Shown here piece by piece: positions 3,556 to 34,662 of a DNA stretch of 64,000 bases (positions are counted from its first letter, which is position 1; each line of letters begins with the position of its first letter). Made by a program: the position numbers and the translations under genes. Source of the stretch: Xestospongia bergquistia (taxonomy: Eukaryota > Porifera > Demospongiae > Haplosclerida > Petrosiidae); contig OZ014412.1 of the NCBI GenBank assembly GCA_963965975.1, forward strand, positions 1,986,501 through 2,050,500, in the 5' to 3' direction. Below the pieces are notes generated by a model that saw nothing but the letters and a program-made list of their open reading frames with translations, was not told the DNA's origin and did not search any database.

Positions 3556-6500
3556 TTAATTACTAGTAAAATTTTCATAATCATCATTGTCTTGTTGTTG
3601 TTGTTCACCAGGTAATACTTCATACATTATATCATCATTTCTATTTACTGAGGTACTATATGATATATTATGTTGTGTAGTAAGTACTGGTTCATATGAT
3701 ATATTAGACTGTGCTATAATATCAGATGTTGTATGATAATTGTAAGTTGGTATATTGTTATCTAAATATTAAAAATATTATATAAACTATTATATTAATA
3801 ATTTATTACCTTTTTGTTTTTGTTTTAAGTAGACAATAAAGAATATAGTAAATATTATAACAGCTGTCAATATGGAAGAGATCACACTAGCTATTATGAC
3901 TGATACTATCAATGTTGTAATAGTAATACTAGTAGTAGTAGCTAATAATAAATTGATATATTAATTATTATTACAATAATATAGAACATACCAGTTATTA
4001 ACTGGTTATTAACTACAAGAGAAAATGTATAACTGACATTTTGAAATGAACATGTGTAGTTAGCAGTGTCTTCAACTTGAGGATTTGTAATGTTAATTAC
4101 ATTACCAAATATGACATCAGTAGGAATAAGTATTCCATTGTCACGTCTAAATAGATATATCAATGATGTCATTATGACAACAGACATATCATACATGACT
4201 TATGTCCATGTGACAGAAGTAGGCGGGGTTCCTCCAGTGTCCAAGTTACAAACAAGGACTACACCATTACCAGCTGTAACAGGTCCATTGACTGTACTAG
4301 TTACTACAACTTTTAATTCTAAAAACAACATTAAAGTATGAATTGTGACCACACCCATTTATTATTACCTAATGTAGTAAAGATGACAGTTGGACTGATA
4401 AGTTGTGGACAATTATCATTTCCAATTCTGATTAATCGGATTTCATAAACAGTCTCTGGCATTAAGTCAGTAATTGTGTACTGAGACACACTAGAATTAA
4501 AGATTTTCTCTGTAGTATTAGACCAATCTTGACCTGTTGAAAAAATTATAGTCAATCATCTTTTATTGTTGTATATACCTTGTAGTTGATATTGTAGATG
4601 TTGGTCTAGGTTCTCAGAGGATGGAGTCCACCTCACAGTAGCTTTTAATGCAGTAATGTTTGATACAGAGGGTACTAGAGGAGCATCTGGTCAAATGACA
4701 ATCACATGATTATTAAGAAAACTGGAAAGCAAACCTGCTGTTTTTGATATAGTAGTGTTCGGACTTTGTCCACCTTCTATGTTAGAGACAGCAACACTTA
4801 CACTACATTTGTGTGTGTGAGAGAGAGAGAGAAAGTGAGGAGAGAGAAATAGGGAGTAACCATACATGATATCATTGACAAGACTTACCTGTATTTATTT
4901 GAGTTCATTAGTGGTTCTACTATATATGTCAGGTCAGATGGTCCTAAGTTACCATGTAGCATATAGTCCTCAGTGGGTGTGGCATTATCATTTCGTACAT
5001 ACACTTGATAACTTGATAAATTCTGTCCACCATTTTCTGAAGGTGGTTGCCATGACACACATAAAGAGTCAGGATAAGAAATAATGTTGAGCATGTTAAT
5101 GGATAATGGAGCTAGAAAGAAGACCAATAGATGAATAGATCCAGAAATAGACAGATAACAATAAGATTACACACCACATCATTACCAACACCATTACCAT
5201 ATATAACATTTATAAGACCACACACAGTATGCCAAGTAGAAATGATTGACTAATTAGTTTACCACAGTATCATAATATTAATTATTATTAAACTAGTTAT
5301 AATATGATTCCTTCTAAAAATAGAAAGTAACCTGATGTGAAAACATTTTGTTAACATCCATAATTTTTGAAAATTGCAAAGTAAATTGATAAAAATATGT
5401 GACAAATGGATATAAGTAATGATGTATATGTAAACAATATAGATATACTAATTAATAAATGGACATATAACACAGTAACTTACAATCAATATCAGTTCTT
5501 GTTATCACATTGTTACTATCAGGACTCCTTCCAACACTATTATTAGCATATATAGTCACATTGTAATATGTACCCTTCATTAGATCACCAATATCAACAG
5601 TAGTGGTTGGAGCTAATACGATCACAGATAACATTAACTGTGACTGATCTACTGGAACATATGTCACTGTATAAGACTGTACTGGTGTCTGTGTAAATGG
5701 ATCTCTATTATCCTATATAAATAAATAGGAGTGATATAATAAATGATGATATATAGTTAATTGGTCATAAAATAATTGTTCAATCCCAGCTGTTATAATG
5801 ACAGTTTGTCAACTCAAGTTATAACAGGATATAGTAGCATTAACAGTGACTATACATTAGGTAGTATATTAGATCATAGGATCATAAAGCTATATAGTTA
5901 TAATGATTGCTGGCAATAACTGTTAGAAGTTATTAATGTGTATGTTGTTCAAATCATTTATGAGTGATTTAATATATGTATATTGTAATAATACTTACAG
6001 TCCATGATACCCTCAAAGCAGTTGCGTTGATTGGAGTGACAGAATTAAGAGTAGAAGCATTAGGAACTGAGAGAGAGAGAGTTAAGATGGCATTCATTAG
6101 TCTTACATACCTAGTGGTGCAGTTTCAATAGTTACACTCACTGGTATACTAGTACCTACTATATTACTAACAGTATTAATAACAACAACAGTAAAATTAT
6201 ATATTGTAAATGGTTGAAGTTCTGATATAGTTGTCTCTGTCCCAGGGACTGGCCCTTTCTTATTAGAGTCAAAAGTATTACTATTACTAACAGCTTCATA
6301 TGTTATATTAACTCCAATAATATCAGCATTGCCATTAAAACCATAAGACCACATTAGTTTAACAGAACTGGTACCAGTTAGTTGGGGAATTAATGAAGTC
6401 ACAGGACAAGGAGCAACTGGAGGTGGAGAGAGTGAAAGAGAAAGAGAGAGATTTGTAACCTTATGTAGTCTTAATATAACTAACCTTGTACAGTAATATT

Positions 6501-7625
6501 AAATGCAGAACTGTCCCTTCCAATTATATTTTCTGTTACACACACATAACTTCCACTGTCTTCTAGTCCTTGAAGAGTTAAAGATAACTCGGTATATGTA
6601 GTCTGAGTATCAATTGAAATATGAGTGAAGTTATCAGGATCAAAGACAGTCCCATTATGTTGCCATGTTATATTTTCAGGAGCAGGGTTCCCATCAAAGG
6701 TACAGTTAATAGTGACCATGTTTCCCACAGGTAATACTGAGCTAGCAGGAGTGATAGATGTGATGGCTGCAATATCTAAAATTAAAGAATGATATCAAAA
6801 CTAAGGACTCAGTGACGATGAACACATCAACAATGCAAAGAGTTCAAAGAAGATTAACTTACATTGTACATTAATAGTGACATTGGACATAGTAATGTCT
6901 GGTACAATATCTTTAGTGGATTGACAGATATAGAGTCCACTAGATTGTCTTTGAATATTATTGAATGGCAAGTTGAGAGGAGTAGATGTGACTTTATTTG
7001 TTAGAACACCACCAGTACTGTTGAACCATTGATAGAATGTAGTCCCAAGATTAGTATTACCAGGATTATTACATGAGAGGGTAAGAGTTGTACCTTCTTT
7101 AATATCTACTATACCATTATGAGACAAAGTGGGATTTCTAAAGACTATTATTTAGAGAATATAGCATGTTAGAGTGTACTATATATCATAACTTACTAAA
7201 TTCTGCTATGGTAATATTATATTCAAAATTCTCTGACACTGAATTACATGTCAGAACATTTCCAACATCAAGTACATTGTCAGGATTTAGTAGTATTAAC
7301 CTATTATTGGTAGGATTTACCAGAACATCTCCATTCATACTACCATTAGTTAAAATAGTACCACTTATTGACCACACCATATCAGTTGGGCATGGATTGT
7401 TTGCAGTTGTAAAACAGCACCGAAAACAGAAAGGACTACTCAGTGGTACAGGATATGATTGAGGACCAAAAAAGTTATGAACATTAGCGTTAGAAGGACA
7501 CTGTTGACCTTGTACACTACCTACAATAAGGAGAGATACAAGATAATATATAGTAAATAGAGATGCACTGCTACCAACCTACCCAACACTAGGATAGTTA
7601 CAACACAGAAAACTATGAGCAACAT
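3556..7625 (-). CDS. Ig/FN3 transmembrane receptor A with tyrosine-motif tail
   Basis: Exons that I can place by splice sites: signal peptide 7625-7583 (MLLIVFCVVTILVLG), Ig1 7520-7197, Ig2 7144-6863, Ig3 6775-6485 (DSGSYVC), FN3-1 6416-6111, FN3-2 6066-5999 and 5712-5484, FN3-3 5111-4889 and 4802-4737, FN3-4 4688-4579 and 4533-4369, Ig4 from 4318 and to about 4010 (DTANYTC), membrane helix about 3940-3830, tail 3763-3556. The tail contains ISYEPV and IMYEVL, both fitting the ITIM pattern, plus DDYENF with a YxN (Grb2-type SH2) motif. A likely cell-surface recognition receptor; ligand unknown. The exon Ig4a ends in ATAAGT where copy G has GTAAGT, so the canonical donor is lost and reading through gives a stop directly after TWT, before the membrane helix. 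An AATAAA on the minus strand follows the normal stop within a few bases. Confidence 0.8.
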
Positions 7626-8499
7626 AGTAACTTGATTACTTCTTTTTTATCACTGATCAATATTAGTACAGTGACTATCTTTAGTTGTAGATCCTAACTT
7701 CTGACAGTAAGGGAATGTTTGGAACTTCCCAGCCTTGCTAGGCCAGCCCCTTCCTCTCTAAGAAAAGGGGCTGGCCTCACCAGACTAGCTAAAATAACTA
7801 TTTTTTTGTAAATTTTTGTTATACTACCAGCAACTGAATTAATCTAAATCCTGCAAACTTACCTTAATATGTCGTTTAACTCAATCATGGAGCCAACTTC
7901 TCCCTAGTTACTCGATTAATAAGCTTCCAGGTATACAATATTTCATTATATCATATGTGTAGTCAATACAATCTGATTATTTTAATATTTTGATTATATA
8001 GATGCCGATAATCGACCACGCCTTCATATATAAATATGCAGTGTTTGCACGCATAAAGCGCAACATTTTGCACACCATATCATTCCAACTTGCTGAGAAA
8101 CAACAATTAATAACTAATGACCCCTCAGTACTAATATCTGGATACACAACCGACCACGCCTATTATAATAATTAACAATTAGTAAATTATAAACCCATTA
8201 ACTTTTTTCTATCCTAGTGTACTAAATTTCATGATAAATTGGGACTTATCCACCTTATTAGGGATTTAATAATAAATTAAACAATATATAGTATCACATC
8301 TCAGTGTTCAATTATTCCTCATGTTGTATAGTTCTAATTAGTGGTATCTCATTCTCAATGTCAGAATAAATTAGATTAATAATTCTATATAATTATATAT
8401 GAACTTATTCCAAGAGAATTATTGTATACATTAATGTAAGTTATAAAATATTAAATTCTGTCACAAATCACTGTCTAAATATTTCTAACGTTGTGATAT
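7626..8499. other. Upstream flank of receptor A, no gene seen
   Basis: This stretch carries the presumed promoter of receptor A and a GC-rich hairpin. It is almost identical to the flank of receptor C (22805-23690). I see no open frame or RNA gene that I can support. Confidence 0.5.
7741..7776. repeat. GC-rich hairpin upstream of receptor A
   Basis: Perfect 12-base arms (GGCCAGCCCCTT and its complement) flank a 12-base loop. The GC content stands out in AT-rich DNA. It lies about 115-150 bases before the start codon, so it may fall in the 5' leader or promoter. The same hairpin occurs at 22916-22951 before receptor C. Confidence 0.8.
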
Positions 8500-9240
8500 T
8501 TTGACTATAAAGAAAGGTGATATTTCATTTTCAAGGTCAGTTAGTGGAACATCTGAGTCCTCTTGTTGAGAGGGCTAATATTACAAATAAAAACTGAATA
8601 AAATAAAGACAATATAATGTACCTCTTTTTAAGGAATTATAGATGGTTTGTTTATAAGATCTTGTGTTTCCATTTCTGCTCCTTTGATAGGTGAAAAAGG
8701 ATGTTGCTGCTATTGCGTTGATAATAATTCTTCTTTTAAAATTTGTTTTGATGATTCGATTCTGTCAATATAAACAACAATAACATATAATAAAACAATG
8801 ACATCACATATCAACAATATATATGCTGTGTTTATAAATTCAAAATACTAGTTGTTAATTTATAATAGGAATGTCACAGATATTTAAAAAAAATAAAAAA
8901 TACATATTATACCTTGTTTCTTCAATGCAGCTGTGATTTGATACATCAGGAAGTGGGTATGTATCTAAAAAGTCATGTCATATATATACATACATATGTA
9001 TAAAAGGTTTTAAATAATAGACAATTGTGTTTTCCCCTTTTATCTCTTCTTATTGAAAAGAGGATTAGTAAATTTATTGATATCCTTACCAGCTGGTGAC
9101 ATAGTTTGAGAATGTACACTATGATACTTATTACAAAGAGGATAGTATACACCATCTGGTTCCTCCATTAGTTGTTGCTCAGATTTAGTAGATAAATCAC
9201 TAACGAGTGGAAATTCTCCTTTACAAGTACTGTAAGAGAG
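8500..9240 (-). pseudogene. Relict cytoplasmic exons of the UNC5-like receptor, copy 1
   Basis: Two pieces match exons of the gene at 45243-36630. The piece at about 9240-9060 contains EEPDGVYYPLCNKYH, like EEPDGVYCSLCNRYH at about 37600. The piece at about 8700-8630 contains ETQDLINKPSIIP, like ETQELLNKPSIIP at about 42200, but is followed by a stop where that gene continues. Their order on the minus strand is reversed relative to that gene. No ZU5 or death domain lies here. A near-identical stretch is at 23690-24420. I read these as relict exons, though a short expressed product cannot be excluded. Confidence 0.5.
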
Positions 9241-10768: not shown

Positions 10769-13700
10769 TTAAGTAGGTGTATCATGACAACCAATATTAG
10801 CTATATCACTACAACAATCATTCCATTTGTAACAGTGTTCATCACAATAGCATCCTTTATGGGAACATTCAGAAGACAGTGACAATTTACAACATCCAGA
10901 ATAACTGAGATTAAGTGCTAGACATGAACCTAAAATAAACAGATAAACAACATGACTTAATTTGTAGTACACATTTACCAGATGGAGTAACAGTTGGTGT
11001 ACTTGATGGTTTGATTGTTGCGCCTATATTGTAATGGTAATAAAGAATTTATAATGAATATTATATATCTCAAGTTATAATTTATCTGATAATGTTTGAA
11101 TCTTCTCACTAAGGCTCAGTAAAGTCAAGTTACTTTAAAGGACCAATACAGGAGTAATACAAGGACTTACTAAGTATGTCAGTTGAAGTAGGTATTGGAT
11201 AGCAATTAATATTAGCTATATCATTACAACAATCATTCCACTTGTGACAATGCTCATCACAATAGCATTGTTTATGGGTACATACAGGTGACATTGACCA
11301 ATCACAACATCCAGGATAACCAAAATTAAGTGCCAGACATGAACCTAAAATAAATATATGAATAAATTAATTTAATTAGCACTTATTTACCAGGTGGAAT
11401 AACAATTGGTGTAGTTGATGGTTTGATTGTTGTGTCTATATAAGAATAGTAACAAAATAATACAAAGGGATAATTATCACATTATCAGTAATTGTATATC
11501 ATTACTACTTAATACATAAACTGATATAGAAAAAATTAGTATAATTAACCATTATTGTGCTATTAAAAACATAATAGGATTTGACACTCACAGAGTGAAC
11601 TTATTGTTGTAAGCTGAGAATTGTATTGGCTGTTAATCATTGAGTTATTTTTGCTGTTAATAATAACTTTCTTGTTTATTAAGTTCTCATGTGGTGGCAA
11701 AATGGGAATTACAAAATAACATTACTTAGCTACTTCTGGTTCTACAAACAATACAATATGATACTTTTTAATGGCATAACTATTTCAAAGCAAGAAGCTC
11801 TAGATTTTGTTTCCATTTGAGTTTCTGTTATGTTTCAACAATCATTATTATTAAATAATTTTGTAACAACTAAAAGTATATTGAAAGAGAATAACATATG
11901 AAAGTGTACTCTAGAACTCTCTCTACTTCCTAGATATAAGTCACTGTAAAGATCTTTATTTAACTACTATATATCACATAAAGTAAATTGTTCATCATTG
12001 TTCTATTGCTTTGATAGCTATAATTACTATGGTTTTGACACTTATTAATAACTTCTAAAAAAAAGAAAGATAAAGGACTGTGTTATAACAATAAAACTAA
12101 CAACAGCTGTAACATTGTAACATCTAGAAATATGAAACATCTTTTGAAATTCCTTTGTCTAAGTAATGAGATCTTAAACAGAGTCTTAATAACTCTGATG
12201 ATTAACAACATGCTGTCAAGTACAATTAGTAAAATGATATATGATATGAACCTTTAAGTTAAGTATATTGCATAATATCATAATGTCATAATATCATAAT
12301 ATCATTTCTTTCTGTATATTATATGTAACAGTAGATGATCCAATAACAGTAGAAACAGCTGTATATGAGAGAGAGATAGTGAGAGTTATTTGCTAAATCA
12401 ACAAAGGGAGTATTTTAATGACATTGAGGGTATTCTCCCATAACACAGGTCACCTTTACTCTATGAGGAACAATGTCTATTATTACAGTATTTAATATCA
12501 TGAGTCATGTTTGAAATAACATTATTAAAAATTCCTGTCTCATTTTTGTTGCATAACTGGACATTCTACAAAGTACCCTAACAGCCAATGACATCACATA
12601 AGATGTCAACCATGAACAATGGACTGTATCATAATAATGACAAATGTCACTATTACAACTGATACTAAAATCAATATTTTCAAAGACTGACCAAGTTGAC
12701 ATTGGTAATGATAGCACCACCTTTAGAAACCCTCACAATACAACCACAAATCATTCAAATAACATTATATAATACTCACTAAATATAGAAACAGATGTTG
12801 AGACAGATAACACAAGATCAGTGGGTTCAACTATGACTTCACATGTATATAGAGTGTACTGTTTGGAAGGAGATGTAATGTGTAAGGTACTGGAGTTTTG
12901 ACCTGACAGAGTTCTAGAAAGAAAAATGATATCAATATAACATTTCCTTGTAATAAGTAATATCTATTCTCACATTTCTTGACTGGTGTTAGTATCAGTA
13001 ACTTTCCATTTGTATTGTTTGACTGATCTGTCTTCACTCATGAATATACATTTTAATTGGAGAGGGTTTCCTTCAATAATTTGAGTATTACCAGTAATAT
13101 CTAATGTATAGTCTAGAGAAAGAGATGCAAATAATGTCAGATATAGCTTGCTCACTTTGTGATGGAACATTTAAGTAGATTTCCTCTTGAGTTCCATTTA
13201 AAATAGCACGACATTTATATTCACCAATAAACTGTTTGGTAAAAGAATTAATTGTAAGAAGACTCCCTCCAAATGCAGTGGTAATTGATACACCAGATGG
13301 TTCATTCCCATTAATAAACCACTCGTAATTTTCAGTTTCTGGACTGAAACATCCTACTTGAAATTTTTCTCCAAGTATTGGAGGAAATAGTGACACAAAC
13401 TCCCATCTGGTCTGGCCTAAAGTGAGTACAACATTCTTCAAGTAAATATTAGCATTTTTGATTGTCACTATGGCAACACAAAGAGCAGTATAATAAATCT
13501 TAAAGTGCTACGAAGTCACGCTCCTCCCTAGAGTAAAATCACTTCTCCTCCTTTCTCTCTCACATCTCCTCTCACTGATCACACTGATATTTACTTTAAC
13601 ACTTTATCAGTTTAAACTAAAATATATTAACAATAGTTTTAAAGTTTCCAATTTATAAGTAATTATTTCAAAATGTGTGACTTTCATTGTTTTTATACTA

Positions 13701-14646
13701 TAGTGTAGTAAAATACTCAAAATGAATATCACTTTAAACTATTGAAATACTATTAACTAGACACTGTATGAGTGTGTCAGTAAACTTACAAACTAAATGC
13801 TGTACATGTTGTATCAGTAAACTTTAAAAGTAACGTCTAGAAATATGAAACATCTTTTGAAATTCCTTTGTCTAACTAATGAGATCTTAACAAAATCTTA
13901 ATAACTCTGATAATTAACAACAAGTCATAATATCATAATATCACAATATCATAATGTCACAATATCATAATATCATAATATCATAATATCATAATATCAT
14001 AATATCATAATATCATAATGTCATAATATCATAATGTCATAATATCATAATATCATAATATCATAATGTCATAATATCATAATATCATAATGTCATAATA
14101 TCATAATATCATAATATCATAATATCATAATATCATAATATCATAATATCATAATATCATAATATCATAATATCATACTGGTTGTATTAATTATAATAGA
14201 GTGGTTGGAACTGATTCATAACTACATGTCTTGCAAATGGATGCTTTGCCAAAAACAAAATAAACTGTTTTGCTAATTACTTACTATGGAATTTTATAAT
14301 TTATATACTTAAATATACAACTTCTCAAAGAGGACATGTGTGTAGCATGTGCTATAAATTCTAGTATAATAGCTTATACAGCTGTAAAGACATAACAAGA
14401 TTACATATTGACAATGATAACATGAGATTGCTATATAAGAAAAGATATGGAAAGTACTTATTTATAATTACATTAAATAATAATATACAGTGTAAATGGA
14501 ATTAATTACAATGTACCTTGTACAACAATATTAGTGCTAGTATTAACTAATATATTATTTACATACTCATAGTCACTGACATTAGATAATATGTCAAAAT
14601 TACAGGAATACTCTCCACTATCATCAGTATTATTCAATGGATTAAA

Positions 14647-14697
<51 letters not shown>

Positions 14698-17403
14698 CTA
14701 AGTATTATAATATATATAGTATAATTATTATGTAATGACCTGTTCTCAGTACAAAAGTGAAGATATTTAATTCACAATGTATGCAATTTAAAATAAATTG
14801 ATGGAAATATTGACTATTATAATAACAATTTAGTTACCAAAATATTCTCTTTTATATTTAGTAGAAATCATATCAAGTGTGTTGATATAATTAATTCCCA
14901 TAATGTTTGCAAATTTCAAAGTAAATGGATAGAAATATGTGGCTAATGGATACATTAAATGACTTAATGGATATATATGGAAACAAATGGACATATAAAT
15001 TAGTAAATGGACATATAATACAGTAACTTACGATCAATATCAGTTCTTGTTGTCACACTGTTACTATCAGGACTCCTTCCAACACTATTATTAGCATATA
15101 TAGTTACATTGTAATATGTACCCTTCATTAGATCACCAATATCAACAGTAGTGGATGGAGATAATACAATCACAGATAACATTGACTGTGACTGATCTAC
15201 TAGAACATATGTCACTGTAATAGACTGTACTGGTGTCTGTGTAAATGGATCTCTATTATCCTATATAAATAAGTAGGAGTGATATAATGATGATGATATA
15301 TAGTTGATTGATCATAACATTTTGTACTATTGCAGCTGTAATATTAACAATTTATCAAGTCAAGTTATAACAGGATATAGTAGTATTAACAGTGATTATA
15401 TATTAGGTAGGACTATAATGACTATATTAGGTAGTACATTAGATCATAGGATCACAGATTTGATTATAATGATTGCTGGTAGTAACATTGTTAAAAGTTA
15501 TTGATGTGTAAGTCATTTATAAGTGAGATAATATAATGTATATTGTAATAATACTTACAGTCCACAATACAATAATTATAGTTAATTGATCATAGCATCA
15601 TTGAACAATTGCAGCTGTAATATTAATATTTACAGTTTATCAAGTCAAGTTATAACAGGATATAGTAGCATTAACAGTGACTATATATTAAGTAGCAGTT
15701 ATAAAATCATAGAGTTAGTTATAGTGATTGCTGGTAGTAATACTGTTGCAAGTTATTGACGTGTAAGTCATTTATAAGTGATATAAGAGTATGTATATTG
15801 TAATAATACTTACAGTCCATGATACTCTCAAAGCAGTTGAGTTAATAGCAGTGACAGAATTAAGAGTAGGAGCATTAGGAACTGAGAGAGAGATAGTTAA
15901 GAGTTAATCACATTATCAATTTAACTTACCTAGTGGTGCAGTTTCAATAGTTACACTCACTGGTATACTAGTACCTACTATATTAGTAACAGTATTAATA
16001 ACAATAACAGTAAAATTATATATTGTAAATGGTTGAAGGTCTGATATAGTTGTCTCTAACATCCCAGAGACCATTTCATCTCCTGAGTGAAAATTTTCAT
16101 TATTACTAACAGCTTCATATGTTATATTAACTCCAATAATATCAGCATTGCCATTAAAACCATAAGACCACATTAGTTTAACAGAACTAGTACCACTTAG
16201 TTGGGCATCTAAGGAAGTCACAGGAGAAGGAGCAACTGGAGGGGATAGAGAGAGATTTGTAATCTACATTAACCTAATATAGCTAACCTTGTACAGTGAT
16301 GTTAACTTTAGAGCTCCTCTCTATACCAATAATATTTTCTGTTACACACACATAACTTCCACTGTCTTTTAGTCCTTGAAGAATCAAAGTTAATACAGTA
16401 TATGTAGACTGAGTATTAACTGAAATATGAGTGAAGTTATTAGGATTAAGAACAGTCCTGTTTTGTTCCCATGTTATATTTTCTGCAGCAGGGTTCCCTT
16501 TAAAGGTACAGTTAATAGTGACTATATTTCCCCTTGGTAGTACAGCACTAGCAGGAGAGATAGAGTTGATAACTGCTGGGTCTAAAAAAGAGAATGATAT
16601 TATCAAGAAGTATAGATAGAAAGTTTTGACTTACATTGTACATTAATAGTGACATTGGACATTTTAATAACACCTGGTACATTAGTTTTAGTAGATTGGC
16701 AAATATAGAGTTCACTGGAATTCCTTTGGATGTTAATAAAAGTTAAATTGAGAGTAGGACCACCTGATAGACCCGTTAATGAAGAACCAGTACTGTCAAA
16801 CCATTGATAGGATGTAGTTCCAGTGTTACCAGGATCTTTACAAGAGAGGGTAAGATCTGTACCTTCAATAACATCTATTATCATATCAGATCCACCATCA
16901 GGAGATAGGACAGGATTTCTGAAGACTATTTTGAGAGAATGAATACATACAATATACAACAGAATATGACATATGAACTTACTAAACTCTGCTATTGTTA
17001 TAGTATGTAGTCCATTTACTACAGACGCTGAGGAACATCTCAAAATGTCACCAACACTGAGTATATTGTCAGGATTTAATATTATTAAAGTATTTTGATT
17101 TGGATCTACAGGATCTATAAGAACTTCTCCATTCATACTACCATTAGTTAAAGTGTTCCCATTTAATGACCATACAGTATCAGAAGGAAATGGATCATTA
17201 CCAACAAATCCACATCTCAAACAGAGGGTATTGACTAATGGAGTAGCAAATGATGGATCATTACCAAAAAAGAACTGTATATTGTTATGAGGACATTGTT
17301 GTCCTTGTACACCAACTATAGCACAAAATAATAATACAACAGCTGGAATATCAATCTTACCCAACAAAACAACAGCTGCTACAACATAGAACATAAATTC
17401 CAT
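10769..17403 (-). CDS. Gene B: secreted Ig/FN3/somatomedin-B protein
   Basis: The start at 17403 opens MEFMFYVVAAVVLLG, a signal peptide. Ig1 (to about 16983), Ig2 (16925-16640), Ig3 (about 16583-16285), FN3-1 (16240-15925) and FN3-2 (about 15883-15823 and 15260-15030) follow, homologous to receptors A, C and D. Further downstream are a damaged Ig exon (14650-14510), two more Ig exons (13440-13150 with FIGEYKC; 13115-12785 split), Thr/Pro linkers (DTTIKPSTTPIVIPP), and two somatomedin-B domains: 11344-11171 and 10929-10769, each with the CYCDEHCxKWNDCC knot. The last exon ends in TAA without any membrane helix, so the product is probably secreted or matrix-bound. Whether all exons make one transcript is inferred; B could also be two genes split near 14.5 kb. 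Two introns near the 5' end are stop-free multiples of three. Confidence 0.55.
13925..14177. repeat. 8-bp satellite (CATAATAT)n
   Basis: About 30 copies of an 8-base unit with occasional T-to-G change (ATGTC). Short versions occur at 12275-12305 and at 27833-27907 in the duplicated block, so the tract has expanded or contracted since the duplication. Confidence 0.9.
14510..14697 (-). pseudogene. Truncated Ig exon running into an (ATT)n tract
   Basis: The minus strand keeps the second half of an Ig domain (NTDDSGEYSCNFD). The first half is absent: immediately upstream is an (AAT)n microsatellite of about 17 units (14647-14697). The frame that encodes the Ig half reads the repeat as isoleucines, while the exon phase left by FN3-2 does not obviously fit. 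A sister copy at 28260-28420 has a shorter tract and lacks the YSC cysteine context (it reads EYSYNFD). Confidence 0.6.
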
Positions 17404-19289: not shown

Positions 19290-22200
19290 TTAATTACTAG
19301 TAACATTTTCATAATCATCATTGTCTTGTTGTTGTTGTTGTTCATCAGGTAATACTTCATACATTATATCATCATTTCTATTTACTGATGTAATATATGA
19401 TATATTATGTTGTGTAGTAAGTACTGGTTCATATGATATATTAGACTGTGCTATAATATCAGATGTTGTATGATAATCATAACTTGTTATATTGTTATCT
19501 AAATATAAAAATATTATATAAACTATAGTATTAATAATTTATTACCTTTTTGTTTTCTTTTTAAGTAAACAATACAGAATATACTAAATATTATAACAGC
19601 TGTTAGTATGGAAGAGATCACACTAGCTAGTATAACTGATACTATCAATGTTGTAATAGTAATATTAGTACTAGTAGTAGTAGTAGCTAATAATAAATTG
19701 TTATATTAATTATTATTACTACAATATAGAACATACCAGTTATTAACTGTTTATTAACTACAAAAGAAAATGTATAACTAGCATCTCGAAATGAACATGT
19801 GTAGTTAGCAGTGTCTTCAACTTGAGGGTTTGTGATGTTAAGTACATTACCAAATATGACATCAGTAGGAATAGGTACTCCATTGTCACGTCTAAATAGA
19901 TATATCAATGATGTCATTATGACATGTCATACATGACTTACCTCCATGTAACATTAGACAGAGTTCCTCCAGTATCTAAGTTACATACCAGGACTACACC
20001 ATTACCAGCTGTAATAGGTCCATTGACTGTACTAGTTACTACAACTTTTAATTCTAAAAACAACATTATAATATGAATTATGACCACACCCATTCATTAT
20101 ATACCTAATGTAGTAAAGATGACAGTTGGACTGATAAGTTGTGGACAATTATCATTTCCAATTCTGATCAATCGGATTTGATAAACAGTCTCTGGCATTA
20201 AGTCAGAAATTGTGTACTGAGACACACTAGAATTAAAGATTTTCTCTCTAGTACTAGACCAATCTTGACCTGTTGACAAATAATAGTCAGTCATATTTTA
20301 TTGTTGTATATACCTTGTAGTCTATATTGTAGATGTTGGTCAAGATTCTCAGAAGATGGAGTCCATCTCACAGTAGCTTGTAATGCAATAATGTTTGATA
20401 CAGAGGGTTGTAGAGGAGCATCTGGTCACATGACAATCACATGATTATTAAGGAAACTAGAAAGCAAACCTGTTGTTTTTGATGTAGTAGTGTTAGGACT
20501 TTGTCCACCCTCTATATTAAAAGCAGCAACACTTATACTGTGTGTGAGAGAAAGTGAGGAGAGAGAAAAAGGGAGTAACCATACATGTTATAATAGACAA
20601 GGCTTACCTATATCTATTTGAGTTCATAAGTGGTTCTACTATATATATCAGGTCAGATGGTCCTAAGTTACCATGTAGTATATAATCCTCAGTGGGTGTG
20701 GCATCATCATTTCGTACATACACTTGATAACTTGATACCCTTCATTAGATCACCAATATCAACAGTAGTGGGTGGAGCTAATACAATCACAGATAACATT
20801 GACTGTGACTGATCTACTGGAACATATGTCACTGTATAAGACTGTACTGGTGTCTGTGTAAGTGCATCTCTATTATCCTATATAAATAAATAGGAGTGAT
20901 ATAATAATGATGACATATAATTAATTGGTCATAACATTTTGAACAATTCCAGCTGTAATATTGACAGTATTTCAAGTCAAGTTATAAGAGGACATAGTAG
21001 TATTAACAGTAACTATATATTAAGTAGAAGTAGTGACTATATTAGGTAGGACATGAGCTTATAGGATCATAGAACTAGTTGTAATGATTGCTGGCAGTAA
21101 TACTGTTAGAAGTTCTTGACATGTAAGTCATTTATAAGTGATATAAGATAATGTATATTGTAATATTACTTACAGTCCATGACACTCTCAAAGCAGTTGA
21201 GTTGATAGCAGTAACAGTGTTAAGAGTAGGAGAAGTAGGTACTGATAGAGATAGGACAAGAGACTTGATATGAATATAATTAATTTAACTTACCTAGTGG
21301 TACAGTTTCAATAGCTATACTCACTGGTATACTAGTACCTACTATATTACTAACAGTATTAATAACAATAACAGTAAAATTATATATTGTAAATGGTTGA
21401 AGATCTGATATTGTTATCTCTGTCCCAGGGACTGGTCCTATCTTATCAGAGTCAGTAGTATTTCTATTATTAATAGCTTCATATGTTATATTAACTCCAA
21501 TAATATCAGCATTTCCATTAAAACCGTAAGACCACATTAGGTTAACAGAACTAGTACCAATTAGTTGGGGAATTAATGAAGTAACAGGAGAAGGAGCAAC
21601 TGGAGGGGATAGAGAGAGAGATTTGTAATCTACATTAACCTAATATAGCTAACCTTGTACAGTGATATTAACTTTAGAGCTCCTCTCTATACCAATAATA
21701 TTTTCTGTTACACACACATAACTTCCACTGTCTCCTAGTCCTTGAAGAGTTAATGTCAACTCAGTATATGTAGTCTGAGTATCAATTGAAATATGAGTGA
21801 AGTTATCAGGATCAAGGACAGTCCCATTTTGTTGCCATGTTATATTTTTAGGAGCAGGGTTCCCATCAAATGTACAGTTAATAGTGATCATGTTTCCCAC
21901 AGGTAATACTGAGCTAGCAGGAGTGATAGATGTGATGGTTACAATATCTAAAATTAAAGAATGATATCAAACTAATTGTAAGACTCATCAGAAAAGATGA
22001 ACAGATCAACAATGCAATGAGTTCAAAGAATGTTAACTTACATTGTACATTAATAGTAACATTGGACATAGTAATGTCTGCTATAATATCTTTAGTGGAT
22101 TGACAGATATAGAGTCCACTAGATTGTCTTTGAATATTATTGAATGACAAGTTGAGAGGAGTAGATGTGACTTTATTTGTTAGTTCACCACCAGTACTGT

Positions 22201-22804
22201 TTAACCATTGATAGAATGTAGTCCCAAGATTAGTATTACCAGGATTATCACATGAGAGGGTAAGAGTTGTACCTTCTTTAATATCTACTATACCATTATG
22301 AGACAAAGTGGGATTTCTAAAGACTATTATTTAGAGAATATAGCATGTTAGAGTGTACTATATATCATAACTTACTAAACTCTGTTATGGTAATATTATA
22401 TTCAAAATTCTCTGACACTGAATTACATGTCAGAACATTTCCAACATCAAGTACATTGTCAGGATTTGGTAGTATTAACCTATTATTGGTAGGATTTAGC
22501 AGAACATCTCCATTCATACTACCATTAGTTAAAATAGTACCACTTATTGACCACACAATATCAGTAGGGCATGGAGGATCTGCAGTTACAAAACAACATC
22601 GAAAACAGAAAGGATTGCTAAGTGGTAGAGGATATGACTGAGGACCAGAAAGGTTACGAACATTAGCGTTAGAAGGACACTGTTGACCTTGTATACTACC
22701 TACAATAAAGAGAGATACAAGATAATATATAGTAAATAGAGATGCACTGCTGCCAACCTACCCAATACTAGGATAGCTGCAACAAAGTAGACTATAAGCA
22801 ACAT
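19290..22804 (-). CDS. Ig/FN3 transmembrane receptor C, with a fused FN3 exon
   Basis: Signal peptide from 22804 (MLLIVYFVAAILVLG), Ig1 about 22700-22375, Ig2 about 22325-22040, Ig3 21950-21655, FN3-1 about 21600-21292, FN3-2 first half about 21240-21172, then a joined exon about 20878-20605, FN3-3 second half about 20540-20470, FN3-4 about 20422-20320 and 20275-20105, Ig4 about 20054-19940 and 19895-19735, membrane helix 19685-19557, tail 19500-19290. The tail reads like A and D, with ISYEPV, IMYEVL and DDYENV. In the joined exon, FN3-2 breaks off after DIGDLMKG and continues out of frame into FN3-3 (YQVYVRND), so a stop follows soon. Unless that exon is skipped in phase, C is a recent pseudogene; the rest of its exons look undamaged. 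Confidence 0.75.
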
Positions 22805-24762: not shown

Positions 24763-25159
24763 CTTCTACAGTTGTCATACAATGAGATTGTCACAATATA
24801 ACAATAAAAGATTAAACCTACTATGTGTTTACTGTTGTGTAGGACTTCTAGTTGTTGGGCTACAGGTGGAACTTAAATGTACATCATTAATGTAATATTC
24901 TCCTTTTTACTTCTATTTATCTGTTCTGTTGAATTGTTCTCTCTTTACCTACATCTTATTTCACCTACTCTGATTATGTCATTTTGTCTATACAACTAAT
25001 AAACTCTAAACAAGATTTTAAACAAATGAAATTTGCTGGCAAAATGAGAGTAGGTAAAATGAGATGTAAACAAAGTGAGAAGCACCTGTTCCATATTTGA
25101 TTTTTGTTATATAAAAATATCTTACAATGATGTTATTTCTCTAAGTGCTGTTATAATAA
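24763..25159. mobile_element. 397-base insertion in the second duplicated block
   Basis: The first block reads GGTCATACAAAACATAATG without a gap at about 9592, while the second block has 397 extra bases at this point. No coding potential, no clear terminal inverted repeats and at most a 2-4 base A-run duplication are visible. It may be a short non-autonomous element, or the first block may have lost it. Confidence 0.45.
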
Positions 25160-26341: not shown

Positions 26342-28380
26342 TTAAGTAGGTATAGCATGACAACCATTATTAGCTATATCACTACAACAATCATTCCATT
26401 TGTGACAGTGTTCATCACAATAGCATCCTTTATGGGAACATTCAGAAGACAGTGACAATTTACAACATCCAGAATAACTGAGATTAAGTGCTAGACATGA
26501 ACCTAAAATAAACAGATAAACAACATGACTTAATTTGTAGTACACATTTACCAGGTGGAGTAACAGTTGGTGTACTTGATGGTTTGATTGTTGCGCCTAT
26601 ATTACAATGGTAATAAAGAATTTATAATGAATATTATATATCTCAAGTTATAATTTATCTGATAATGTTTGAATCTCCTCACTAAGGCTCAGTAAAGTCA
26701 AGTTACTTTAAAGGACCAATACAGGAGTAATACAAGGACTTACTAAGTATGTCAGTTGAAGTAGGTATTGGATAGCAATTAATATTAGCTATATCACTAC
26801 AACAATCATTCCACTTGTGACAATGTTCATCACAATAGCATTGTTTATGGGAACATACAGGTGACAATGACCAATCACAACATCCAGGATAACCAAAATT
26901 AAGTGCCAGACATGAACCTAAAATAAATATATGAATAAATTAATTTAATTAGCAGTTATTTACCAGGTGGAGCAACAATTGGTGTAGTTGAAGGTTTGAT
27001 TGCTGTGTCTATATAAGAATAGTAACAAAATAATATAAAAGGATAATTATCACATTATCAGTAATTGTATATCATTACTACTTAATACATAAACTGATAT
27101 AGAAAAAATTAATATAATTAACCATTATTGTGCTATTAAAAACATAATAGGATTTGACACTCACAGAGTGAACTTATTGTTGTAAACTGAGAATTGTATT
27201 GGCTGTTAATCATTGTGTTATTTTTGCTGTTAATAATAACTTTCTTGTTTATTAAGTTCTCATGTGGTGGCAAAATGGGAATTGTAAAATAACATTACTT
27301 AGCTACTTCTGGTTCTACAAACAATACAATATGATACTTTTTAATGGCATAACTATTTCAAAGCAAGAAGCTCTAGATTTTGTTTCCATTTGAGTTTCTG
27401 TTATGTTTCAACAATCATTATTATTAAATAATTTTGTAACAACTAAAAGTATATTGAAAGAGAATAGCACATGAAAGTGTACTCTAGAACTCTCTCTACC
27501 TCTTAAATATAAGTCACTGTAAAGATCTTTATTTAACTACTCTATATCACATAATATAAATTGTTCATCATTGTTCATTGTTTTGATAGCTATAGTTACT
27601 ATAGTTTTGACACTTATTAATAACTTCTAAAAAAATGAAATATAATGGACTGTGTTATAACAATAAAACTAACAACAGCTGTAACACTGTAATATCTAGA
27701 AATATGAAACATCTTTTGAAATTCCTTTGTCTAACTAATGAGATCTTAACAAAATCTTAATAACTCTGATAATTAACAACATGTTGTCAAGTACAATATG
27801 ATATGAACCTATAAGTTAGTTATATTGCATAATATCATAATATAATATCATAAATATCATAATATCATAATATCATAATATCATAATATCATAATATCAT
27901 AATATCATACTGGTTGTATTAATTATAATAGATTGGTTGGAACTGATTCATAATCACATGTCTTGCAAATTGATGTTTTGCCAGAAACAAAATAAACTGT
28001 TTTGCTAATTACTTACTATGGAATTTCATAATTTATATACTTAAATATACAAATTCTCAAAGAGGACATGTGTGTAGCATGTGCTATAAGTTCTAGTATA
28101 ATAGCTTATACAGCTGTAATGACATAACAAGATTACATATTGACAATGATAATATGACATTGTTATAAGAAAAAGATATGGAAAGTACTTATCATATCCA
28201 CTTTATAATTATATTAGTTAACAATATACAGTGTAAATGGAATTAATTACAATGTACAACAATATTAGTGCTAGTATTAACTAATATATTCTTTACATAC
28301 TCATAGCCACTGATAATAAATAGAATGTCAAAATTATAGGAATACTCTCCACTATCATCAGTATTATCCAATGGATTAAA

Positions 28381-28416
<36 letters not shown>

Positions 28417-29503
28417 CTAAGTATTATAATATATATAGTATAATTATTATGTAATGACCTGTTCTCAGTACAAAAGTGAAGATATTTAATTCGCAATGTA
28501 TGCAATTTAAATAAATTGATGGAAATATTGACTATTATAATAACAATTTAGTTACTGAAATATTCTCTTTTATATTTAGTAGAAATCATATCAAATGTGT
28601 TGATATAATTAATTCCCATAATGTTTGCAAATTCCAAAGCAAATGGACATATATATGACAATTGGATACATTAAATGACTTAATGGATATATATGGAAAC
28701 AAATGGACATATAAATTAGTAAATGGACATATAATACAGTAACTTACAATCAATATCAGTTCTTGTTATCACACTGTTACTATCAGGACTCCTTCCAACA
28801 CTATTATTAGCATATATAGTCACATTGTAATATGTACCCTTCATTAGATCACCAATATCAACAGTAGTGGGTGGAGCTAATACAATTACAGATAACATTG
28901 ACTGTGACTGATCTACTGGAACATATGTCACTGTAAAAGATTGTACTGGTGTCTGTGTAAATGGATCTCTATTATCCTATATAAATAAATAGGAGTGATG
29001 TAATAATGATGACATATAGTTAATTGGTCATAACATATTGTACAATTGCAGCTGTAATATTAACAATTTAACAAGCCAAGTTATAACAGAATATAGTAGT
29101 ATTAACAGTGACTATATATTAGGTAGGACTAATGACTATATTAGGTAGTACATTAGGTCATAGGATCACAGATTTGATTATAATGATTGCTGGTAGTAAC
29201 ATTGTTAAAAGTTATTGATTTGTAAGTCATTTATAAATGATATAAGAGTATGTATATTGTAATAATACTTACAGTCCATGATACTCTCAAAGCAGTTGAG
29301 TTAATAGCAGTGACAGAATTAACAGTAGGAGCATTAGGAACTGAGAGAGACAAGGAAGAGTTAATCACATTATCAATTTAACTTACCTAGTGGTGCAGTT
29401 TCAATAGTTACACTCACTGGTATACTAGTACCTACTATATTACTAACAGTATTAATAACAATAACAGTAAAATTATATATTGTAAATGGTTGAAGGTCTG
29501 ATA
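26342..29503 (-). pseudogene. Headless second copy of gene B (FN3, Ig half, two SMB domains)
   Basis: From 29503 downward the minus strand holds a broken FN3-1 exon, FN3-2 (about 29340-29274 and 28975-28745), the Ig half exon (28380-28260), and two somatomedin-B exons (about 26917-26740 and 26502-26342) with the CYCDEHCHKWNDCC knot intact. It has no signal peptide or Ig1-3. FN3-1 stops abruptly at 29503, where sequence of the receptor 3' flank begins. The Ig exons present in B at 12785-13440 are absent. It may be transcribed by read-through from D, but as it stands it has no start. Confidence 0.65.
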
Positions 29504-29706
29504 GGTGTCAGATAAATTTTGCAAAATTTTGTGGTTATTAATAACAAAAATGAGCAATTACTATTTTTATGCAAAATATTTAAAAGGAATGTTTTATTGT
29601 AACTATGACAACAGTTTAATATTAACAGTTTATTACTAAAATAATTACTACAAAATTCAATAAAAGATATGATTATTAATTATATAATAATCAATTTCAT
29701 TAATAG

Positions 29707-32700
29707 TTAATTACTAGTTAAATTTTCATAATCATCATTGTCTTGTTGTTGTTGTTGTTCACCAGGTAATACTTCATACATTATATCATCATTTCTATTC
29801 ACTGATGTAATATATGATATATTATGTTGTGTAATATGGACTGGTTCATATGATATATTAGACTGTGCTATAATATCAGGAGATGTTGTATGATAATCAG
29901 AACTTATTATATTGTTATCTAAATATAAAAAATATTATATAAACTATTATATTAATAATTTATTACCTTTTTGTTTTCTTTTTAAGTAGACAATAAAGAA
30001 TATACTAAATATTATAACAGCTGTTAGTATGGAAGAGATCATACTAGCTAGTATAACTGATACTATCAATGTTGTAATAGTAATATTAGTACTAGTAGTA
30101 GTAGTAGCTAATAATAAATTAATATATTAATTATTATTACTACAATAATATATAACATACCAGTTATTAACTGTTTATTAACTATAAGAGAAAATGTATA
30201 ACTGACATTTTGAAATGAACATGTGTAGTTAGCAGTATCTTCAACTTGAGGGTTTGTGATGTTAAGTACATTACCAAATATGACATCAGGAGGAATAGGT
30301 ACTCCATTATCACGTCTAAATAGATATATCAATGATGTCATTATGCTATTATATCATACATTACTAACCTCCATGTGACATTAGATGGAGTTCCTCCAGT
30401 ATCTAAGTTACAAACAAGGACTACACCATTACCAGCTGTAATAGGTCCATTGATTGAACTTGTTACTACAACTTTTAATTCTAAAAACAACATTATAATA
30501 TGAATTGTGACCACACCTATTTATTATTACCTAATGTAGTAAAGTCAACAGTTGGACTGACAAGTTGTGGACAATTATCATTTCCAATTCTGATTAATCG
30601 GATTTCATAAACAGTCTCTGGCATTAAGTCAGTATACATGTACTGAGACACACTAGAATTAAAGATTTTCTCTCTAGTACTAGACCAATCTTGACCTGTT
30701 GACAAATTATAGTCAATCATCTTTTATTGTTGTATATACCTTGTAGTCTATATTGTAGATGTTGGTCTAGATTCTCAGAGGATGGAATCCACCTCACAGT
30801 AGCTTGTAATGCAGTAATGTTTGATACAGAGGGTATTAGAGGAGCATCTGGTCACATGACTATCACATGATTATTAAGGAAACTAGAAAGCAAACCTGTT
30901 GTTTTTGATATTGTAGTGTTAGGACTTTGTCCACCCTCTATATTAAAAGCAGCAACACTTATACTGTGTGTGAGAGAAAGTGAGGAGAGAGAAAAAGGGA
31001 GTAACCATACATGTTATAATAGACAAGGCTTACCTATATCTATTTGAGTTCATAAGTGGTTCTATTATATATATCAGGTTAGATGGTCCTAAGTTACCAT
31101 TTAGTATATAATCCTCAGTGGGTGTGGCATCATCATTTCGTACATACACTTGATAACTTGATATATTCTGTCCACCATTTTCCAAAGGTGGTTGCCATGA
31201 CACACATAAAGAGTCAGGATAAGAAGTAATATTAAGCATGTTAACAGCTAATGGAGCTAGAGAGAAGATAAATAGATGAACAGATCCAGAAATGGATACA
31301 TAAATATGACCTTACATACCATACAATTACCATAGAAACCTAAACCAATATGTCCTTATAAGGACATATATATGTCCATATGTGGACATATAAGGACAAT
31401 CTATTACTATTCATTACATATGGCCCAAGACATCCATCAGGTACACATAACATGTTATGATATTGAAAAACCAATATATTATGATATTGATAGGTAATTT
31501 TATAAACTCTTCAGTTGTTTATTGTCTTAATTTAATGTTTTTTTAGCCTGGCACACAGCATACCAGGTAAATAAGATATAATGATTAGTTTATTACAGTA
31601 TCATAATCATTATTATTAAACTACTTATGATATGATTCCTACTAAAATAGAAGGTACTACTATTGGTATGACATGTTGTCAATATAATAATGAGGATATG
31701 TATTAATTCTAAACAATGTTTGCAAATTGAAATGACTTAATGGATATATATGTAAACAAATGGACATACAGATTAATAAATGGACATATAAGGTGGTTGC
31801 CATGACACACATAAAGAGTCAGGATAAGAAGTAATATTAAGCATGTTAACAGCTAATGGAGCTAGAAAGAAGACCAATAGATGAATAGATCAAGAAATGG
31901 ACAGATAACAATAACATTACACATCACATCATTACCATCACCATTACCATATATAACATATATAAGACCACACACAGTATACCAAGTAGAAATGATTTAA
32001 TGATTAGTTCACCACAGTATCATAATTATAATTATTATTATTAAACTAGTTATAATATGATTCCCTCTAAAAATAGAAAGTAACCTGATGTGAAAACATT
32101 TTGTTAACATCCATAATTTTTGAAAATTGCAAAGTAAATTCATAAAAATATGTGAAAAATGGATACAAGTAATGATGTATATTCTTATGACCACTTGGTA
32201 CACATATTATGCCAGGTAGAAAAGATATACTAATTAGTTTACCACAGTATCACAATTATCATTATTAAACTAGTTATAACATGATAACTTCTAAAAATAG
32301 AAAGTATTATTTTTGGTGACAACCTGTTTAATTTTATGAAAACATATTGTTAATTTCCACAATGTTTTGCAAATTACAAAGTAAATGGATAGAAATATGT
32401 GACTAATGGATACATGAAATGAGTTAATCGGTAAACAATATAGATATACTAATTAATAAATGGACATATAATACAATAACTTACGATCAATATCAGTTCT
32501 TGTTGTCACACTGTTACTATCAGGACTCCTTCCAACACTATTATTAGCATATATAGTCACATTGTAATATGTACCCTTCATTAGATCACCAATATCAACA
32601 GTAGTGGGTGGAGCTAATACAATCACAGATAACATTAACTGTGACTGATCTACTGGAACATATGTCACTGTAAAAGACTGTACTGGTGTCTGTGTAAGTC

Positions 32701-34662
32701 CATCTCTATTATCCTATATAAGTAAATAGGAGTGATATAATAATGATGACATATAATTAGTTGGTCAAAATATAAATATAATTAAACATTTGCAGCTGTA
32801 ACATTAATATTAACAGTTTGTCAAGTCAAGTTATAACATAATATAACAGATTAACAGATACTATATATTAGGTAGGACTAATGACTATATTAGGTAGTAC
32901 ATTAGGTCATAGGATCACAGATTTAGGTATAATGATTGCTGGTAGTAATACTGTTGGAAGTTATTGACATGTAAGTCATTTATAAGTGATATAAGATAAT
33001 GTATATTGTAATAATACTTACAGTCCATGATATCCTCAAAGCAGTTGAGTTAATAGCAGTGACAGAATTAAGAGTAGGAGCATTAGGAACTGAGAGAGAT
33101 AGAATAAGAGAGAGAGACTGAAATGAATTTAATGAATTTATCTTACCTAGTGGTACAGTTTCAATAGTTACACTCACTGGTATACTAGTACCTACTATAT
33201 TACTAACAGTATTAATAACAATAACAGTAAAATTATATATTGTAAGTGGTTGAAGATCTGATATAGTTGTCTCTGTCCCAGGGACTGGCCCTTTCTTATT
33301 AGAGTCAGTAGTATTGCTATTACTAACAGCTTCATATGTTATATTAACTCCAATAATATCAGCATTGCCATTAAAACCATAAGACCATATCAGTTTAACA
33401 GATCTAGTACCAATTAGTTGAGGAATTAATGAAGTAACAGGAAAAGGAGCAACTGAAAGGGGAGAGAGTGAAAGAGATTTGTCAACATGTTAACCTAATA
33501 AACTAACCTTGTACAGTGATATTCACTTTAGAACTAGTCTCTATTCCAATTATATTTTCTGTTATACACACATAACTTCCACTGTCTTCTAGTCCTTGAA
33601 AAGTCAAAGATAACTCAGTATATGTAGACTGAGTATTAACTGAAATATGAGTGAAATTATTAGTATCAAGGACTGTCCCATTATGTTGCCATGTTACATT
33701 TTCAGGAGTAGGATTCCCATCAAAGGTACAGTTAATAATGACCATGTTTCCCACTGGTAATACTGAGCTAGCAGGAGTGATAGATGTGACGGCTGCAATA
33801 TCTAAAATTAAAGAATGATATCAAAACTAATTGTAAGACTCATCAAAAAAGATGAACAGATCAACAATACAGGAGTACAAAGATTAACTTACATTGAACA
33901 TTAATAGTGACATTGGACATAGTAATGTCTGGTATAATATCTTTAGTGGATTGACAGATATAGAGTCCACTAGATTGTCTTTGAATGTTAATAAAAGATA
34001 TGTTAACAGGAGAAGTTGATACTTTATTTGTTAGATTACTACCAGTACTGTTGAACCATTGATAGAATGTAGGATCATTAATAACAGGAAGATCAGTATT
34101 ACCAGGATCATCACAAAAGAGAATTAGATTTGTACCTTCAACAACGTCCATAGTACCATTAGGAGATAGGGTGGGATTTTTGAAGACTGTTATAGAATAT
34201 ATTAGAGTGTTAATAATATATTATTATAACTTACTAAATTCTGTTATAGTAATATAGCGTTGACCTTGTGCAGAACATCTCAAAACATTTCCAACACTGA
34301 GGACATTGCCAGGGTTTTGTAGTATTAAAATAGCATCAGAATTAATAAGAACACTTTCATTAATACTACCATTAGTTAATGGAGTACCATCAAGCGACCA
34401 CATTACATTAGAAGGACATGGGTCTCCACTTGTGAAACAACATCGAAAACAGAAAGGGTTGTTTAGTGGTACAGGATATGATATATCATTAAAAAAATTT
34501 TGTGTTATACCATTAGAAGGACACTGTTGACCTTGTACATCATCTACAGTAGAGAGGAGTAGAGAAAGAGAGGGAATAAAAACAAGGCAGCATGCACTGC
34601 TGCAGATAGACCAACCTACCTAGTACTAGGGCAGCTACTATAGAGTAGATAATTAGCCTCAT
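29707..34662 (-). CDS. Ig/FN3 transmembrane receptor D, apparently intact
   Basis: Signal peptide 34662 onward (MRLIIYSIVAALVLG), Ig1 about 34544-34235 (CFRCCF cysteine cluster), Ig2 about 34186-33893, Ig3 33802-33507 (DSGSYVC), FN3-1 about 33450-33148, FN3-2 about 33089-33022 and 32715-32485, FN3-3 about 31259-31034 and 30965-30898, FN3-4 about 30850-30740 and 30701-30532, Ig4 about 30480-30371 and 30317-30162, membrane helix about 30110-29967, tail about 29922-29707. About 900 residues. Every junction I checked has GT-AG and the phases agree. The tail carries ISYEPV, NISYITSV, IMYEVL and DDYENL. FN3-like repeats with many NxT/S sites suggest a heavily glycosylated surface protein. Ligand and pathway are unknown; the tail predicts SH2-phosphatase or Grb2-type partners. 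It is the best reference copy of the family here. Confidence 0.85.
31794..31866 (-). pseudogene. Partial duplicate of the FN3-3 exon inside an intron of D
   Basis: About 70 bases repeat the 5' part of D's FN3-3 exon (31184-31262) with few changes and then stop. The same flanks (AGACCAATAGATGAATAGAT) occur next to the FN3-3 exon of receptor A. It is a leftover of unequal exchange, not an exon. Confidence 0.65.

Follow-up and report, generated by a model that had tools for sequence, protein, structure and literature searches.

Tandem Ig/FN3 receptors with ITIM-like tails, and SHP-type phosphatases, in the genome of Xestospongia bergquistia

In the stretch of DNA analysed here (the window, 64,000 nucleotides of the Xestospongia bergquistia genome, G000:C2:1986501-2050500), three tandem receptor copies, A, C and D, lie on the minus strand with the same exon order (within 34662-3556), each combining an outer part of immunoglobulin (Ig) and FN3 domains with a tail that carries sites fitting the immunoreceptor tyrosine-based inhibitory motif (ITIM). 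We consider it quite possible, if still short of probable, that they come from a small family of genes for type I receptors, the heads of which would bind ligand, with Src-type kinases phosphorylating the tails and SHP-type phosphatases damping the signalling. The initial annotation, made from the letters of the window, had described the tandem copies and their homologous ectodomains, and both are upheld by a common 15-exon Ig/FN3 plan in A, C and D. The copies were rebuilt exon by exon through homology, from genomic DNA rather than transcripts and with the splice signals read from that DNA, and all comparisons are between paralogues within this single genome (146.5 Mb searched, in 21 contigs), in which the counts of family matches are lower bounds.

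The plan consists of a signal exon (E1), one exon each for Ig1, Ig2, Ig3 and FN1, two each for FN2, FN3 and FN4, two for Ig4, a transmembrane exon (E14) and a tail exon. Copy D (29707..34662, minus strand; signal, three Ig, four FN3, one Ig, transmembrane segment and tail) is the sole intact gene among the three, and the only intact one seen in the window with their (type-I) tail, being uninterrupted to its stop codon with GT-AG at every modelled intron, and encodes 908 residues, 894 from E2 onwards and 14 of E1; an extra partial E8 at 31862-31791 was skipped in the gene model. With its signal-like E1, Ig and FN3 domains, hydrophobic transmembrane exon and tail, D is a single-pass receptor with an Ig ectodomain (its signal and transmembrane segments were judged by eye). 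Pfam recognised fn3 in four stretches of D (110.8 bits) plus Ig families, with Ig3 and the FN3 domains well recognised; the Ig cut-offs were passed by E3 of K1, a copy from a second cluster, and E2 and E3 of D scored below them. E2 was predicted to adopt an Ig fold (predicted local distance difference test, pLDDT, of 87.3 from a 10-row alignment), and this predicted structure retrieved 12 PDB matches at E<=0.001, in Ig-containing chains, with modest TM-scores of 0.35-0.53 by query length, so that E2 is called an Ig domain from its predicted fold. A search against viral folds gave one match at E<=0.001 and added nothing, and a Toxin_19 match on the E2 exon of copy K2 (E 0.019, below cut-off) was taken as chance.

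In D, the transmembrane exon (29967..30107) is joined in phase 1, through a GT donor and an AG acceptor, to the tail exon (29707..29918), which encodes ISYEPV (29856-29839), IMYEVL (29784-29767) and YEN (29730-29722); the motif coordinates in A, C and D were counted by hand, those of D from the exon match 29919-29710. Copy A (3556..7625, minus strand) retains 15 of 15 exons, its tail exon (3556..3761) encoding ISYEPV at 3702-3685 and IMYEVL at 3630-3613, and the donor of its intron 12, after the exon end at 4204, is AT instead of GT; retention of this intron would lead to an in-frame TAA ahead of the transmembrane exon. Copy C (19290..22804, minus strand) follows the same plan, with a deletion near 20737 that fuses E7 and E8 out of frame, and its tail exon (19290..19498) encodes ISYEPV at 19439-19422 and IMYEVL at 19367-19350. 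Apart from the A intron-12 donor and the C E7/E8 region, the splice borders of A and C are AG/GT. The three tails thus have ISYEPV, IMYEVL and YEN in common, as the initial annotation had noticed, and its assumption that the tail exon belongs to the ectodomain agrees with transmembrane-to-tail splice signals in A, C and D, with the reservation that the AT donor in A and the frame break in C interrupt the full-length gene. Two incomplete copies accompany them on the same strand: B (15032..17315), with E2-E7 only and the later exons of the plan unmatched downstream, and a fragment of a further copy (28752..29504), with part of E5 followed by E6 and E7. Just upstream of A, ARAGORN called a tRNA-Ser (7703-7791), and a near-identical uncalled sequence was seen by eye upstream of C, around 22.88 kb, so the call may mark a repeat and not a true gene.

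We scored the strict ITIM pattern, (I/V/L/S)xYxx(I/V/L), in 11 tails: A, C, D, those of K1, K2 and K3 from the second C2 cluster, and P1-P5 from contig C5; M, N, P6, P7 and a further C5 tail match at 1043875 were left out. Two strict matches were found in each of A, C, D, K1 and K2, six in K3 and one in each of P3, P4 and P5, so that at least one is present in all nine tails with an uninterrupted transmembrane exon; the orphan C5 tails P1 and P2 have two and none. At least two strict sites arose in 1.8% (A), 2.8% (C) and 2.8% (D) of shuffled tails (1.8-3.8% over A, C, D, K1 and K2), and the six sites of K3 were reached in 0 of 20,000 shuffles; the single site of P3-P5 arose in 17-21% of shuffles and the two sites of P1 in 4.0%. 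From the frequencies in A, C, D and K1-K3, chance is unlikely as a full account of the motifs. The first site lies in a cassette of 36 bp, with the unit NISYEPVLTTQH (D and M have HITQH), present once in A, C, D and K2 and twice in K1 and M, and K3 has five units plus one in which phenylalanine replaces the tyrosine; the units are near-identical at the DNA level. A degenerate pattern coding for NISYEPV matched the genome exactly at 12 places, each in a tail of the receptor family, and its backward control had one match. The ITIM reading of the tails is plausible, and the tail is probably a tyrosine-rich segment read by phosphotyrosine-binding proteins, with ITIM-type sites that turn over in position.

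Several observations weigh against this reading. The tyrosine columns of the tail alignment are invariant in four of five cases, compared with 20 of 53 other columns (one-sided p=0.088; seven tails, A, C, D, K2 and P3-P5, with K1, K3, P1 and P2 omitted for repeats or truncation and gapped columns, including the YEN tyrosine, set aside). The ratio of nonsynonymous to synonymous substitution rates (dN/dS) in the tail is 0.44-1.05 over the 12 pairs of {A, C, D, K2} with {P3, P4, P5}, which indicates weak constraint at best. Hence, of the constraint on tail tyrosines raised by the initial annotation, the invariance of four columns was found, and a significantly higher conservation than in the rest of the tail was not. 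In the C5 tails the positions of the strict sites are not conserved and YEN is missing; P3-P5 have YDRS at site 1 and methionine at position -2 of site 3, and their site 2 has turned into a strict match (ISYISV, VSYVSV and ISYVSV). P2 has no strict match and has phenylalanine for tyrosine at site 2, one K3 unit likewise has phenylalanine in place of its tyrosine, and the broken tails N and P6 (unscored) have no strict site in the letters read, although the fragment M keeps two. Two of the three copies A, C and D are damaged, and E2 of D scores under the Pfam Ig cut-offs. Moreover, since the A, C and D tails are recent copies that differ pairwise by 2 to 4 synonymous differences, the motifs shared among them are not independent evidence.

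The same recency, the near-identical cassette DNA in 1 to 6 units, the retention of the motifs in the damaged A and C and a cross-group dN/dS that reaches 1.05 are what would be expected if the tail were nearly unconstrained and minisatellite-prone, its motifs being mostly a by-product of the copying of the 36-bp unit and of recent duplication. We judge this explanation unlikely: the four invariant tyrosine columns span a split of 53-67% identity, a strict match is found in every tail with an uninterrupted transmembrane exon, and dN/dS is 0.44 for A versus P3 and 0.60 for D versus P3. To the same low degree we credit the proposal that the tyrosines are YxxPhi sorting signals for clathrin adaptors, acting in receptor internalisation. 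YEPV, YEVL and YENF/YENV/YENL all fit YxxPhi (three per tail in A, C and D; two to six per tail in 11 of 11 tails), and site 3 keeps its tyrosine, glutamate at +1 and leucine at +3 in all 11 tails while position -2 varies between I, V and M (by eye). However, the number of YxxPhi sites does not clearly stand out from shuffles in 10 of the 11 tails (p 0.06-0.44; 0.0037 in K3), and the residue at -2 of site 3, whether I, V or M, is aliphatic in every tail, a feature preferred by SHP docking and unneeded for sorting. YDRS, at site 1 of the C5 tails, fits neither a sorting signal nor an ITIM.

In favour of the ITIM reading, the coinciding genome searches for protein tyrosine phosphatase (PTP) and SH2 domains identified the order SH2-SH2-PTP at nine loci, seven of them in one uninterrupted frame; 150 of 405 PTP candidates were scored, so that there are at least nine SHP-type loci. 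Six lie together on contig C3 (1265457-1266926, 1268722-1270194, 1273556-1275043, 1275615-1277096, 1282056-1283528 and, with a stop in its PTP domain, 1271582-1273050), and the others at C3:916188-917681, C7:8318067-8319560 and, in pieces, C6:199640-201523. Four of the nine were read (L040-L043), each with Pfam SH2 in two stretches and Y_phosphatase with HCSAGIGRTG, and the other five were assigned through domain searches. L041 matches PTPN11 at 4.7e-152 and retains the FLVR arginine, the equivalents of D61 and E76 and the HCSAGIGRTG loop; L042 gave no match at the strict limit of 1e-149 in a single search. Vertebrates have two SHP genes. A group of ten SH2 matches was also found at C6:1.622-1.697 Mb, and the one that was read is an SH2-kinase whose best PDB match is Src (3.3e-140), with no SH3 domain in the frame read. 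The PTP family is large in general (194 matches in the genome), which also counts against the proposal, since other receptors may be the ones that the SHP copies serve. As a partner we also considered an SH2 gene next to the receptor cluster (L021; exons for SH3, RhoGAP and SH2, with a p85-type look), and judged it a coincidence.

We hypothesize that a ligand, perhaps a partner on a cell surface, binds to the head, that a Src-type kinase would then phosphorylate the tail tyrosines, and that a tandem-SH2 SHP-type phosphatase would dock on the tail and dampen signals in its vicinity. In A, C and D, 24 residues separate the two main sites, a distance that would suit docking by both SH2 domains; the spacing suited to such docking is taken from vertebrate receptors. 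Alternatively, the tails could be docking sites for activating or scaffolding proteins with SH2 domains (Grb2 via YxN, or Src kinases), the receptors signalling positively as adhesion receptors do, a proposal that agrees with YEN in A, C, D and K3, with at least one Src-like kinase gene and with the 81 SH2 matches of the genome. Nevertheless, K1, K2 and all five scored C5 tails lack YEN, none of the 11 type-I tails has YxxM, the p85 site, and we regard positive signalling as the most improbable of the explanations considered. The initial annotation had proposed the same signalling logic as in vertebrate inhibitory receptors; an Ig/FN3 family with ITIM-like tails, SHP-type phosphatases and a Src-type SH2 kinase speak in its favour, the tyrosine-constraint test fell short of significance, and the unconserved site positions and missing YEN on C5 count against it.

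Each complete ectodomain comprises a distal head (Ig1-3) and a body (FN1-4 and Ig4). In a tree of Ig1-3 (nine copies), {B, K1, E, N} are separated from {A, C, D, K2, S1} with full support, E being a further copy in the window. Although adjacent to each other at 0.25 Mb of C2, K1 and K2 fall into different head classes, the other copies being located at about 2.0 Mb or on C1; the two C2 clusters, 1.7 Mb apart, thus each contain both classes. K1 and K2 are paired with full support in the trees of FN1-2 (seven copies) and E9-E13 (six copies). Forcing K1 and K2 together in the head was rejected (approximately unbiased test, p-AU 2.8e-5), as were {B, E, N, K1} in FN1-2 (p-AU 2.0e-5) and E with K1 in E9-E13, the groups for these tests having been picked after the distances had been seen. 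Synonymous divergence (dS) between D and E is 0.53 for E4 and drops to 0.055 for E5; between K1 and K2 it drops from 0.29 to 0.056. The simplest reading is that two old classes of head became attached, close to the border of Ig3 and FN1, to bodies that gene conversion or unequal exchange has made uniform in each cluster, and the shared head classes with cluster-grouped bodies suggest exchangeable recognition heads. Positive selection on the heads was considered and found unsupported, with pooled dN/dS of 0.39-0.52 for E2-E4 across copy pairs and a nonsynonymous to synonymous ratio of proportional differences (pN/pS) of 0.47-0.63 among five copies; judged from these ratios, the head diversity is old, not fast. 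Exon E7, an FN3 half-exon (for example 32713-32485, 5712-5484 and 62842-62614), has a pS of 0.05, compared with 0.13-0.43 in the other exons of E2-E13, with pN/pS of about 1.1 among five copies and a pooled dN/dS of 1.46 among eight; its near-frozen synonymous sites may stem from a recent conversion, or else the DNA may have a second function.

Genome searches gave 17 matches at 14 places for the tail query and 12 matches each for the C5-type tail, the transmembrane segment and the ectodomain exon E7. Ten of the E7 matches are in the two C2 clusters, and the remaining two are at C2:2.20 Mb, with an internal stop, and C2:5.35 Mb, weak (E 0.001). The expanded family of the initial annotation is therefore a multigene family in which the expansion is modest. 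K1 and K2 (C2:0.25 Mb) were followed from E2 through the tail, their signal exons and the K2 transmembrane acceptor not being located; of the nearby K3 only some exons were matched, besides the tail with six strict sites. S1, on C1, has an intact-looking head and a broken tail (P6), N (C2:1.978 Mb) a stop in the transmembrane exon and a broken tail, and M (C2:2.081 Mb) is a fragment of a tail. P3, P4 and P5, on C5, have transmembrane and tail exons of the A/C/D type, and the stretches around them contain no E2-E13 match better than E 0.008, so that the transmembrane-tail pair stands behind at least two kinds of outer part; reading frames that are short, repeated and S/T-rich lie upstream of the C5 tails, and an Ig-like open reading frame without a Pfam match lies near P3. 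No transmembrane exon was found close to P1, P2 and P7, which are pieces of tails. We also observed an S/T/P tandem-repeat reading frame on C5 by these tail-sharing receptors (L031:9512-10000) and a transmembrane exon match distant from the known clusters (G000:C2:15025638-15025760, 59%, E 9e-7).

Copy E offers the reverse combination, since its outer part matches the family and its transmembrane segment and tail differ from those of A, C and D. Its ectodomain (60784..64000, minus strand) runs past the end of the window, E2 and part of E3 being located beyond it, in L023. The transmembrane exon (60576..60723, minus strand) gave no E14 match and has AG/GT borders, with the frame open across the junctions; the tail exons (60480-60381 and 58463-58224, within 58224..60480, minus strand) follow with GT-AG borders and a frame open to the stop, and contain VEYATV, the single strict ITIM match read in this tail. 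The last tail exon has two matches in the genome, both within the window. A remnant (53969..54498, minus strand) consists of an Ig1-like 5' piece adjoining the second type-II tail exon, without the VEYATV tyrosine.

Other features of the window were noted in passing. A cysteine-rich exon is duplicated at 10769-11023 and 26342-26596; by eye we assume it to be somatomedin-B-like, and the first copy, which was the one scanned, gave no Pfam match at E 0.1. Between A and B (12720-14680) there is an Ig-type frame, with Ig_3 at 13088-13507 (E 2e-5, below cut-off) and other Ig-like pieces recognised by eye that are unmatched by the exons of the receptor family. The minus-strand region 37937-40454 encodes a Death domain at 38 kb (23.5 bits, barely above cut-off) and a ZU5-like segment at 40 kb, below cut-off. 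An FN3-like frame at 44351-44725 scores slightly below the Pfam cut-off, a weak E14 match near 43.5 kb may mark an accompanying transmembrane segment, and a hAT transposase dimerisation region (PF05699, 40.5 bits) lies amid the receptor copies at 45402-45734.

The gene content of the genome is of animal type, with fn3/Ig receptors, SHP-type phosphatases and a Src-type kinase. Its 95 NACHT matches agree with the large set of NOD-like receptors (NLRs) reported for Amphimedon queenslandica (135; PMC9505182).

The vertebrate ITIM receptors (PD-1, LILRB, SIRP, PECAM-1) resemble the present family in their Ig ectodomain, single transmembrane helix and ITIM-type tyrosines, in the similar spacing between those tyrosines and in the SHP genes of the genome, and differ from it in that here there are four FN3 domains, the inhibition is putative and the site positions are unconserved across paralogue groups. 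Among invertebrates, Hydractinia Alr has an architecture different from that of the sponge family. As described in a review, Ig receptors with ITIM tails or tails with half of the activation motif ITAM (hemITAM) occur in the allorecognition loci of Botryllus and Hydractinia (PMC12065747), so that ITIM-type Ig receptors are already known from invertebrate allorecognition and lend support to the ITIM reading of the sponge tails. Likened by description only, Alr shares with the present family Ig-like receptors bearing such motifs, and Botryllus FcoR shares clustered, multiplied type I Ig receptors, with tails of ITIM, hemITAM or core Yxx(I/L/V) type and loci differing in motif (PMC12065747). FcoR has a V-Ig, a sushi and two C2-Ig domains where the sponge receptors have Ig x3, FN3 x4 and Ig, and no sushi domain was present among the 13 Pfam families found for D at E 0.01, most of which are of the fn3 and Ig kinds. 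Crassostrea CgIgIT2 is likewise an invertebrate Ig receptor with an immunoreceptor-type tail, differing in its ITAM and its five Ig domains (PMC11999971). According to the review cited above, there is no conservation among the proteins proposed for allorecognition in sponges, cnidarians and ascidians (PMC12065747). None of the literature matches listed was recognised as a sponge ITIM receptor or a sponge SHP expansion, subscription papers being outside that search, and receptors of this kind that combine, in a sponge-like animal, bodies made of FN3 domains with heads that can be exchanged, more than one type of tail and an ITIM cassette in repeated units seem to be a new case.

It can be suggested, with considerable doubt, that two ancient exchangeable heads, a tunable ITIM cassette of one to six units and multiplied SHP and Src-type kinase genes together form an inhibitory recognition system, possibly for self/non-self, in which case the ITIM-SHP logic would date back to the root of animals or close to it. 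If the tails do dock SHP, the element common to these recognition systems would be the wiring and not the receptor, and it would extend to sponges; the two head classes, with their exchange between heads and bodies, provide a concrete candidate locus for recognition.

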